Positions 3,456-23,536 of a DNA stretch of 45,488 nucleotides are shown here, piece by piece. Positions within the stretch are counted from its first letter, which is position 1. Each line of letters begins with the position of its first letter. The stretch comes from Dehalococcoidia bacterium (GTDB lineage: Bacteria; Chloroflexota; Dehalococcoidia; Tepidiformales; Tepidiformaceae), in the NCBI GenBank assembly GCA_020432045.1, contig JAGQHB010000058.1:1-45488 (forward strand), read 5' to 3'. The translations under genes were made by a program, and so were the position numbers. Under the pieces are notes generated by a model. It did not search any database. It was not told the DNA's origin and worked only from the letters and a program-made list of their open reading frames with translations.

Positions 3456-3995
3456 TTACGCGGCTGGCGGAGCGACGCTCTCATCTTCAGGGGCGGGATG
3501 GTCCGTGGCCGGGGATTCCTTTTCGGCGAGCGCTGCGACGGCAAATTCGGCACCCAACCCGCTCACGTCCGCCGGACTGAGGGCCAGACGACGCCTGATC
3601 AGCCCAAGCCGGGGTTTGCGGACGCGGTACGAGGTGACATTGCCGGCACCGTCGACATCGATCCCATCGATGGAGCCGAGTCGCTGACCATCCTTTGTGA
3701 ACACGGTTCGACGCTTCAGCTGCAGCCCTGCTTCGAGTGCCGACACGAGCGACTCGCTGTGAACAGCGAGGTGCGCGTCTTTCAGGCTCGGGACAGTCAG
3801 CGCGTCCTGGTCGAACTTCCCAATTGCCGCCGCCGGGATGACCACCGACAGCTCGGGAACAACCCCCACACTCATGACCACGAGGGAAACCTGGTGGCGA
3901 GAAGGATCGACCAGGATATCGACCGGACGGCCGATCGTCTTACCTTCGCCGGTTGCGAGAATCTCGCGCTTCGTGAGCGCACTCAGACGGGGCAT
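3456..3995 (-). CDS. PRC-barrel domain protein
   Basis: A cytoplasmic protein of about 179 residues with two PRC-barrel-like beta domains. The first (roughly 1-90) begins SALTKREILATGEGKTIGRP and contains VDILVDPSRHQVSLVVMS. The second (roughly 95-150) contains TKDGQRLGSIDGIDVDGAGN. The tail is acidic and Pro-rich. PRC barrels serve as small ligand- or protein-binding modules in photosynthetic reaction centres, RimM and stress proteins; the role here is unknown. The ATG at 3995 is preferred over the one at 4010 because GGAGGTG (4002-4008) sits six bases upstream of it. It lies about 110 bp downstream of the small ORF that follows the c-di-AMP riboswitch, so it may belong to the same transcript. 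Confidence 0.85.
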   Translation of the reverse strand: MPRLSALTKREILATGEGKTIGRPVDILVDPSRHQVSLVVMSVGVVPELSVVIPAAAIGKFDQDALTVPSLKDAHLAVHSESLVSALEAGLQLKRRTVFTKDGQRLGSIDGIDVDGAGNVTSYRVRKPRLGLIRRRLALSPADVSGLGAEFAVAALAEKESPATDHPAPEDESVAPPAA

Positions 3996-4107
3996 CTTCA
4001 GCACCTCCATGCCGTATCTGGAAATTGGTTCGCTCGTTCATTAGAGCATGGGCGCTCCACGCTCAGGATCTGATTCCTTGTTGCCCCTTTGGGTCGCACA
4101 TCGCCAA

Positions 4108-4469: not shown

Positions 4470-4518
4470 GGTCGAAGCCATTGGAGACCTCAACCCGGTG
4501 AGGGCAGTCCGTCTCCCG

Positions 4519-4633
4519 ATCGTCTACGGAGTTAGCTGTCGGGTTCGGCGTCGGAATCGCCTATGCGCACCTGCGCAATGCACCCCAGGGAATTGGGTCC
4601 CCCGCTCCCGCGGGCATCGCGGGATTCGACCTG
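4519..4633 (-). ncRNA. c-di-AMP riboswitch (ydaO/yuaA type), copy 1
   Basis: The minus-strand RNA carries the conserved blocks of the ydaO/yuaA aptamer in order: GTCGAATCCCGCG, a GC hairpin, GGGGGACCCAATTCCC, GGGGTGCAT, a variable stem, CGATTCCGAC, and then GCCGAACCCGACAGCTAACT with CCGTAGAC closing the P1 helix. The layout is that of the high-GC class upstream of cell-wall genes in Actinobacteria and Chloroflexota. A good promoter lies directly upstream, so transcription should start at about 4630. The class usually turns expression off when c-di-AMP is high. Downstream on the same strand are the small ORF at 4428 and the PRC-barrel gene. A homologous copy lies at 23361-23473. Confidence 0.85.
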
Positions 4634-4636
4634 CCT

Positions 4637-4665
4637 ATTGTATCAATTATTGGAGCCAATGTCAT
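4637..4665 (-). promoter_or_regulatory. Sigma-70-type promoter for riboswitch copy 1
   Basis: On the minus strand, ATGACA (4660-4665, five of six matches to the -35 consensus) is followed after 17 bases by TACAAT (4637-4642, five of six matches to the -10), with a TG just upstream of the -10 (extended -10). The expected start, about 4630, coincides with the first base of the aptamer. Confidence 0.75.
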
Positions 4666-21723: not shown

Positions 21724-23043
21724 TCAGTCCTCAAAGAAGAACTTCTCCTCGCCAAATGCAGGGCGGAGTTCATCGAGCCAGGTTGCGGCCTCGTCGTATT
21801 CGGCGAAGAAGGGGCGCATCACCCAGTCCGGATTTCGACCCTGCAACATGAGCAGCGAGAGTGCCGACTTGCCATGGATCTCCGTAGGACCGAGGACGGC
21901 GACCTTGCCGGGGTCGCACGACATGCTGGGTCCGCGGACGGTGCGAGCGAGCCCGGAGACATTCTGATAGGCGCCCTGAAAGATCTCCCATGCGCGGACC
22001 AGAGGCACATCGAAATAGTGCTTCGCCCCGGTGTCGCGGGCGACGAACATGTAATAAGGGATGGCGCCAAGGCGGACTTCTTCCCGCCACATATCGCGCC
22101 ACACATCGGAATCATCGTTGATGTGGCGCATGAGCGGCGACTGGGCACGGATCTGGGCGCCAGTCTCGCGGACGCGCTCCATCGCTTCGCGGACCGTAGG
22201 AGTGGACAGCTCACGAGGATGGTTGAAGTGGGCCATCACGGCGACATGAAGTCCGGACCCGCGGATCCGGCGGAAGAGGCGGAGCAGTTCGTCGCCGTCT
22301 TCGCCGAGGAAGCGGTACGGCCAATAGCCAAGGGCCTTGGTCCCGAAACGGATCGTGGTCAGGTTCGGGAGCTTCGCATCGAGGATAGCGTCGACGTAGG
22401 AGGCGAGCCGTGATGTCTTCATGACCAGGGGGTCGCCACCGGTGAAGAGGACGTTCGTGACCTCCGGGTGCTGGCGTAGATAGGCGATGAGAAGGCCCAC
22501 CTCCTTCATCGCGAATTGAAGGCCGTCCATGCCGACGAACTGTGGCCAGCGAAAACAGAAGGTGCAGTAGGCATGGCAGGTCTGGCCGCTCCCCGGGAAG
22601 AAGAGGACCGTCTCGGGATACTTATGCTGAATGCCAGGCAGCCGCAGGCCGTCGAGTTCAGGGACGTTATGTTCGATCTGTCCGGCCGGGTGAGGGTTAA
22701 GCGACAGGCGGATCTCGTCGGCGGCAGCACGGATCACATCCGGCCCCTGGCTGGAATCGACGAGCGCGGCGATGCGGGAGAAATCGGCGGGACGAAGCAT
22801 CCCTTCCTGCGGGAAGTTGAGCACGAACATGGGATCGTCCGGGATCTCGTCCCAGTTAATCAACTCATCGACGACGTAGTTATTCGTCTTGAAGGGCAGG
22901 ACTTGAGAGACGACATCGATCGCATGGACCTGTGCCGGTGAAAGGCGGCTGACCTGCGGGAGGTCGCGGAAATTGTGGCGCGTGTACGCGCGGTACTGAT
23001 TGGCGGCCGTCGTTGCGGCTGGGCGTGTGAGTAGTTGAACCAT
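21724..23043 (-). CDS. kamA: KamA-family radical SAM aminomutase (lysine 2,3-aminomutase-like)
   Basis: A 439-residue enzyme of the lysine/glutamate 2,3-aminomutase family, moving an amino group from C2 to C3 by radical chemistry with SAM, a [4Fe-4S] cluster and PLP. The cluster motif is C156-x3-C160-x2-C163 in TCHAYCTFCFRW. TGGDPLVMKT is a family block, and K380 in SCDPGKVAVLG is the likely PLP lysine. The amino acid substrate cannot be fixed from sequence. Lysine would give beta-lysine, used for the osmolyte N-acetyl-beta-lysine or for EF-P modification. ATG at 23043 follows GAGG at eight bases. A c-di-AMP riboswitch lies about 320 bp upstream on the same strand. No acetyltransferase partner gene is adjacent. 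Confidence 0.9.
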   Translation of the reverse strand: MVQLLTRPAATTAANQYRAYTRHNFRDLPQVSRLSPAQVHAIDVVSQVLPFKTNNYVVDELINWDEIPDDPMFVLNFPQEGMLRPADFSRIAALVDSSQGPDVIRAAADEIRLSLNPHPAGQIEHNVPELDGLRLPGIQHKYPETVLFFPGSGQTCHAYCTFCFRWPQFVGMDGLQFAMKEVGLLIAYLRQHPEVTNVLFTGGDPLVMKTSRLASYVDAILDAKLPNLTTIRFGTKALGYWPYRFLGEDGDELLRLFRRIRGSGLHVAVMAHFNHPRELSTPTVREAMERVRETGAQIRAQSPLMRHINDDSDVWRDMWREEVRLGAIPYYMFVARDTGAKHYFDVPLVRAWEIFQGAYQNVSGLARTVRGPSMSCDPGKVAVLGPTEIHGKSALSLLMLQGRNPDWVMRPFFAEYDEAATWLDELRPAFGEEKFFFED

Positions 23044-23360
23044 TGGAATACCTCAATCTGGCTGGCGTTCCAGGACAGCGCGGAGCTGTCGCCGGGCGGA
23101 GGGAGGCACGCCGCTGCGAGAGCGCGTCCACGGCAGGGCTAAAGCGGATACCGGGGTCGCGGTTAGGAGTGTGCGTCGGAACGGGGGGCGTGCATGAGCA
23201 CGCGTTCCCATGGCCGTGAAACGGCGAGCAGGCACGTGCGCCGCGAATGGGACGCCACGTAGGCGGCCAACGCAACGGGCACGCAAGAAGCAGGGCGGTA
23301 GTTCACCGGCAGACTCCACTTCGGTGCGATGCACCAGGATGTGGAGGCAAATGCCTCCCG
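23044..23360 (-). other. Long leader between riboswitch copy 2 and kamA
   Basis: About 315 bp of transcribed leader if the riboswitch drives kamA. Just after the aptamer a perfect hairpin GGAGGCA/TGCCTCC (23343-23358, two-base loop) may be the expression platform. Two short minus-strand ORFs are possible: 23163-23306 (GTG start with GGAG upstream, about 47 residues) and 23053-23334 (93 residues, Arg/Pro-rich). Neither resembles a known protein. They may be noise, a leader peptide, or the remains of a gene once directly controlled by the switch. Confidence 0.45.
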
Positions 23361-23473
23361 AACGTCTACGGGGTTAGCTGACGGGTTCGGCATCGGAAGT
23401 CGCCGCGCGCGTGGTGCGCGTTCACCCCGGGAAATTGGTTCCCCCGTTCCAGCAGAGCGCTGGATTCGACGTT
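23361..23473 (-). ncRNA. c-di-AMP riboswitch (ydaO/yuaA type), copy 2
   Basis: The minus-strand RNA has AACGTC and GACGTT closing P1, then GAATCC, a GC hairpin, CGGGGGAACCAATTTCCC, GGGGTGAACGCGC, a variable stem, GCGACTTCCGAT and GCCGAACCCGTCAGCTAACC with CCGTAG. These are the conserved ydaO/yuaA blocks, closer to consensus than in copy 1 (GTCAGCTAACC is exact). At the position of the copy 1 promoter there is an extended -10 (TGATAAGCT, about 23479-23487) but no good -35. It lies between the glycosyltransferase stop (23537) and kamA, both on the minus strand, so kamA is the nearest intact target. Confidence 0.88.
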
Positions 23474-23536
23474 TCCAGCTTATCACACCGGGGACCGGCA
23501 AGGCTGGTTTTTATTCATATCGCGTTCAAACGAACC

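Follow-up and report, generated by a model that had tools for sequence, protein, structure and literature searches.

The closest described system is that of Dehalobacter sp. CF, in which a tandem Na+/c-di-AMP riboswitch on the lysine-2,3-aminomutase gene (ablA) was reported in 2022, together with termination data obtained in vitro (PMC9337991). The general idea of a c-di-AMP riboswitch on an enzyme of beta-amino-acid osmolyte synthesis is thus already known, and the preliminary description of the present locus, which saw in it a direct RNA link between c-di-AMP and osmolyte production, had been anticipated by that example. The same paper names eam, the gene for glutamate 2,3-aminomutase, as a target of Na+ riboswitches (PMC9337991), and in Streptomyces ydaO/yuaA riboswitches are found on genes for Rpf and other cell-wall hydrolases (PMC10117811). 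The locus described here resembles the Dehalobacter tandem switch in carrying a c-di-AMP aptamer before a gene for a KamA-superfamily aminomutase, in the proposed link to a beta-amino-acid osmolyte and, in eight Chloroflexota relatives, in a terminator-type OFF logic. It differs in having a single c-di-AMP switch, in its occurrence in Chloroflexota and in its divergent KamA subfamily without the lysine-binding residues, and the locus itself shows a leader ORF while lacking a clear terminator. From the Streptomyces switches, which are of the same aptamer class, it differs in the type of target; one of the 11 switches in the source genome of the window (L009) lies ahead of what reads as a large G5/Rpf-like protein.

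The window, meaning the whole stretch of DNA that was analysed, is positions 1–45,488 of contig JAGQHB010000058.1, forward strand (45,488 nucleotides; Dehalococcoidia bacterium, GCA_020432045.1). The preliminary description had placed a c-di-AMP riboswitch at 23361–23473 on the minus strand and proposed an RF00379 search there; that search returned a match enclosing the interval (Table 1), at 81.8 bits (E 1.2e-17; gathering score 38) and covering the full length of the model (1–134) with no truncation. By its sequence the element is a genuine c-di-AMP riboswitch, and it presumably binds c-di-AMP. The source genome (3.48 Mb) has 11 RF00379 aptamers and encodes a diadenylate cyclase (c-di-AMP synthase) domain. 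Upstream of the aptamer is a PMT-type glycosyltransferase gene and downstream of the KamA-like gene a convergent CoA-transferase gene, so that the KamA-like gene appears to stand alone. Elsewhere in the window lies a second full-length c-di-AMP riboswitch; after it, on its own strand, come a possible 106-aa ORF and a gene for a PRC-barrel protein.

Table 1. Features of the window, with positions numbered from its first nucleotide, and groups of related loci.
Feature	Position or loci	Strand	Basis
c-di-AMP (ydaO/yuaA) riboswitch aptamer	23348..23481	(-)	RF00379 covariance model
Possible expression platform, hairpin GGGAGGC-AUUU-GCCUCC directly after P1	23326..23361	(-)	sequence
47-aa leader ORF, GTG start, ends ...HSRRTCLLAVSRPWERVLMHAPRSDAHS	23163..23306	(-)	conserved in nearest relative G016
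KamA-like protein of the radical SAM/PLP type (439 aa), predicted to be a 2,3-aminomutase of an acidic amino acid, probably glutamate	21724..23043	(-)	NCBIfam, 2a5h, residues
PMT-type glycosyltransferase gene, upstream of aptamer	ends 23537	(-)	ORF and family match
Second full-length c-di-AMP riboswitch	4506..4641	(-)	80.7 bits
PRC-barrel protein gene	3456..4010	(-)	
Nitrosopumilaceae KamA-like and glutamine synthetase loci	L066, L085, L089, L094, L096, L097, L101, L103, L105, L108		
c-di-AMP riboswitch loci ahead of OtsA or GlgE, Chloroflexota without KamA-like gene	L195, L223, L192-L194		
72-aa zinc-ribbon protein loci	L003, L198, L203, L206, L211, L217, L220, L227, L233, L238, L244, L245, L250		
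57–60 aa zinc-ribbon protein loci	L001, L197, L202, L207, L210, L215, L219, L225, L234, L239, L246		

The link between the aptamer and the KamA-like gene is solidly conserved in one branch of the Chloroflexota. The gene is present in 15 of 38 genomes of the same family and, in the survey of ydaO–kamA adjacency that had been suggested, all but one of these (14/15) were found to carry RF00379 upstream of it on the same strand; eight further loci with the same arrangement came from a contig collection outside the 38 genomes. The sole exception, G011 (L021), showed no RF00379 upstream even at permissive thresholds, and at the gathering score none was detected ahead of any KamA-like or LAM-like gene in the remaining set from the class, which comprised L021 itself with L027, L028-L033 and L145-L151. 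One of these KamA-like genes, that of G301 (L145), contains an in-frame TGA. For comparison, a random gene would have an estimated chance of about 0.1% of lying within 800 nt downstream of a switch, given 11 switches in 3.48 Mb. In a quick tree of 92 homologues the 23 sequences with a switch all group in a single clade of 24 members (SH-aLRT 97) with one loss, which argues that the pairing arose once and was then kept; it counts as one gain retained and not as repeated independent gains, within a clade whose KamA-like proteins have diverged to about 60–65% identity.

In most relatives the KamA-like gene is the first frame with a Shine–Dalgarno sequence past the switch, its start 60–105 nt away, and small ORFs intervene at four loci (L023-L026) and in the pair formed by the window and G016. 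Eight loci (L037, L040, L041, L043, L044, L047, L051, L058) carry, about 11 nt past the aptamer, a hairpin (−18 to −29 kcal/mol) followed by a T-rich tail, which by sequence has the layout of a termination OFF switch. The 5' arm of the hairpin (CCGAGG or similar) is, by inspection, complementary to the 3' strand of the aptamer core, and the Dehalobacter OFF switch has the same complementarity (PMC9337991). OFF control by c-di-AMP is thereby supported by analogy with the relatives and the literature, and is the direction that we would expect in the organism of the window.

The window itself lacks such a terminator. The KamA-like gene begins with an ATG 304 nt past the end of the aptamer match, a gap previously put at about 320 bp, and it is the next long gene, as had been described; another reading frame probably precedes it, since a 47-aa ORF conserved in G016 lies between it and the switch. 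This ORF shows 68% identity over 37 aa to the ORF at the same place in G016, with the nucleotide differences concentrated in the third codon position (8, 11 and 21 by position). A 93-aa ORF at 23053–23334 was considered and is probably spurious, having no family match, the conserved frame being that of the 47-aa ORF. Peptides similar to the 47-aa ORF follow c-di-AMP riboswitches in G030, G027, G007 and G001, and together they form a set of leader peptides of 38–59 aa with a common SRPW[EQ] motif, lying directly past the riboswitch while the downstream genes vary (L192-L196 and L247 besides the window). The CUCCAC arm of the putative platform hairpin can pair alternatively with GUGGAG, the Shine–Dalgarno-like sequence of the 47-aa ORF, and both pairings occur in predicted folds; folding of the window leader in apo and ligand-bound forms gave no clear difference in ribosome-site accessibility. 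A consensus scan of this leader found no terminator-like site, and the best structure in a hairpin search reached −9.7 kcal/mol. A sequence able to pair both with the aptamer flank and with a Shine–Dalgarno site was present in 35 of 55 leaders, where shuffles gave an expectation of 14.7; this is suggestive only, since the loci are kin and the test, with its fixed boundaries, missed the window leader. Switching in the window may act first on translation of the 47-aa leader ORF.

Comparison with NCBIfam places the gene product nearest to the KamA-family radical SAM proteins, below every cut-off and far below those of all the aminomutase equivalogs: it scores 124.3 bits against TIGR00238 (KamA family radical SAM; cut-off 199.2), 107.6 against TIGR03820 (AblA, lysine 2,3-aminomutase; 525.4) and 88.6 against TIGR04368 (glutamate 2,3-aminomutase; 650). 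On these scores it is no canonical KamA, being related to the curated TIGR00238 model yet outside it. It matches lysine 2,3-aminomutase (LAM; PDB 2a5h) by sequence too, and its AlphaFold2 model (pLDDT 87.9) aligns with 2a5h at Z 30.6 over 341 residues, the runner-up structure scoring Z 12.1, with about 21% identity over the structural alignment. The LAM fold of the model, the CxxxCxxC cluster motif and the PLP lysine place it in the KamA-type aminomutase superfamily. When the protein and 94 relatives (95 members in all) were aligned to 2a5h, Cys156, Cys160 and Cys163 (Fe-S), the carboxylate-binding Arg165 (LAM Arg134) and Lys380 (LAM PLP Lys337) were invariant.

The side-chain pocket is where the family departs from LAM, in which Asp293 and Asp330 bind the epsilon-amino group of lysine. 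Asp293 is replaced by Arg336 in 94 of the 95 members and Asp330 by Ser373 in 93, and both Asp are kept in the true LAM-like proteins of the same class. Among the exceptions in the alignment is a true LAM-like protein, L033, extended by an acetyltransferase-like part; in its Dehalococcoidia genome (G049) the LAM-like domain and the acetyltransferase-like C-terminal part are read from sequence as a single 764-aa open frame, resembling an AblA–AblB fusion. In the characterised glutamate 2,3-aminomutase the positions of Asp293 and Asp330 are occupied by Lys and Asn, so that its pocket, like that of the KamA-like protein, is a non-Asp one; the predicted reaction is also the same, whereas the score against TIGR04368 sets the KamA-like protein apart as a separate subfamily. 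Arg at the Asp293 position argues for a substrate with a negatively charged side chain. An acidic substrate would therefore fit better than lysine, and the most likely reaction is that of glutamate to beta-glutamate, with which the pocket change is no more than compatible; as a reasoned prediction, glutamate itself has about an even chance of being the substrate. No described function for this KamA subfamily was found in the open literature.

The KamA-like protein has homologues of about 60% identity in Bacteroidota, Pseudomonadota, Nitrosopumilaceae and other groups, and the surroundings of some of them point to osmotic functions. Of 18 Nitrosopumilaceae loci, 10 have a type I glutamine synthetase gene after the KamA-like gene and 17 have an MscS channel gene divergent to it; as one lineage, all of these amount to one observation. 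The bacterial contexts of osmolyte type are three loci, with glutamine synthetase (L045), MscS (L065) or TrkA/TrkH (L046) genes nearby, and the commonest bacterial neighbour is an aminotransferase. The Nitrosopumilaceae arrangement of a KamA-like gene followed by a glutamine synthetase gene, usually with a divergent MscS gene, is a candidate locus for beta-glutamine as an osmolyte. Both beta-glutamate and beta-glutamine are known to act as osmolytes, and in Methanohalophilus the latter is made by glutamine synthetase (PMC1224877). Within the Chloroflexota, the same riboswitch lies ahead of OtsA (trehalose-6-phosphate synthase) in G001 and G017, and ahead of GlgE in G007, G027 and G030, and in these genomes the KamA-like gene is absent. 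The KamA-associated and OtsA-associated cassettes have in common a related helical protein (about 160 aa), and SRPW leader peptides precede both KamA-like and GlgE/OtsA genes, which argues that the KamA-like gene is a compatible-solute gene of the regulon. These contexts are best read as those of an osmolyte gene, and such a role is likely.

Other genes that lie past c-di-AMP riboswitches include those of two families of small zinc-ribbon proteins. The first is an almost invariant 72-aa protein (MPALQEAPPKSCPKCRGSMIVERDWHGTYGSCIMCGYVHEV...QRQRRRQPSHGKLRL), which is the first ORF past a c-di-AMP riboswitch in most surveyed genera, and the second, of 57–60 aa (...RRCPEC...RDRYCPGCH.AVPEWRFG), lies past another set of these riboswitches.

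Three other explanations have to be weighed against compatible-solute synthesis from glutamate. The preliminary description proposed that the switch controls a lysine 2,3-aminomutase making beta-lysine, the precursor of N-acetyl-beta-lysine, and this could draw on the superfamily and fold that the protein shares with LAM, as well as on the published c-di-AMP switch on Dehalobacter ablA (PMC9337991). Yet the family as a whole has lost the two Asp residues that bind lysine, so the protein is not a lysine aminomutase and lysine was ruled out as its substrate; the score is far under the cut-off of the lysine aminomutase model, no acetyltransferase gene (ablB) adjoins the KamA-like gene in the window, and the genes of the class that do encode true LAM-like proteins, with both Asp, are without a switch nearby at the gathering score. 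We consider the beta-lysine proposal very improbable. What survives of the earlier interpretation is a true aptamer, its conserved linkage to the gene and the osmolyte role suggested by context, and what does not is the product.

A switch that acts on the KamA-like gene could also serve a different role, with aspartate, another amino acid or a modified residue as the substrate, and the pocket residues unlike those of lysine aminomutase, the scores under every characterised aminomutase model and the class I aminotransferase neighbour in Chitinophagaceae and some Pseudomonadota would all be in keeping with this. It is made less likely by the glutamine synthetase, MscS and Trk genes that adjoin homologues, and by the osmolyte genes that relatives have under the same switch, but we still give it an appreciable probability. 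That the switch in the window regulates only the 47-aa leader ORF, the KamA-like gene being transcribed independently, would agree with a conserved ORF with a possible Shine–Dalgarno sequence between switch and gene, and with the similar peptides past switches at loci without a KamA-like gene. Against it, a consensus scan, as a low-power test, found no promoter-like site between aptamer and gene, most relatives have the gene right next to the switch with no such ORF between, and other solute genes are also preceded by the leader-ORF layout; we regard it as improbable.

The explanation that we favour, and hold as a whole to be reasonably probable, is that a c-di-AMP riboswitch controls compatible-solute synthesis through a KamA-like 2,3-aminomutase, which most likely acts on glutamate. 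When c-di-AMP is high, as would be the case without osmotic stress, the aptamer would bind its ligand and expression of the KamA-like gene would be lowered; under salt stress c-di-AMP would fall and the gene would be expressed. Its product, a radical SAM/PLP 2,3-aminomutase with a basic or neutral side-chain pocket, would most likely convert L-glutamate to beta-glutamate, which would accumulate as an osmolyte, with amidation to beta-glutamine where a glutamine synthetase is coupled. More tentatively, and at somewhat less than even chances, the widespread KamA subfamily, in which identity between Chloroflexota and ammonia-oxidising archaea is about 60%, may act as a glutamate 2,3-aminomutase and furnish beta-glutamate or beta-glutamine for use as a compatible solute; in one Chloroflexota lineage it would have come to be switched by c-di-AMP as an alternative to trehalose genes.

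What is new here is the lineage, the single-switch layout and the undescribed KamA subfamily, the last being the more interesting part. Direct RNA control by c-di-AMP of beta-amino-acid osmolyte synthesis, with a single example so far in a Firmicute, would be extended to uncultured Chloroflexota, where the arrangement has long been conserved. A conserved KamA subfamily, found also in abundant marine archaea beside glutamine synthetase and MscS genes, gains a testable function and, if its substrate is glutamate, this would suggest that beta-glutamate or beta-glutamine is made by these organisms.
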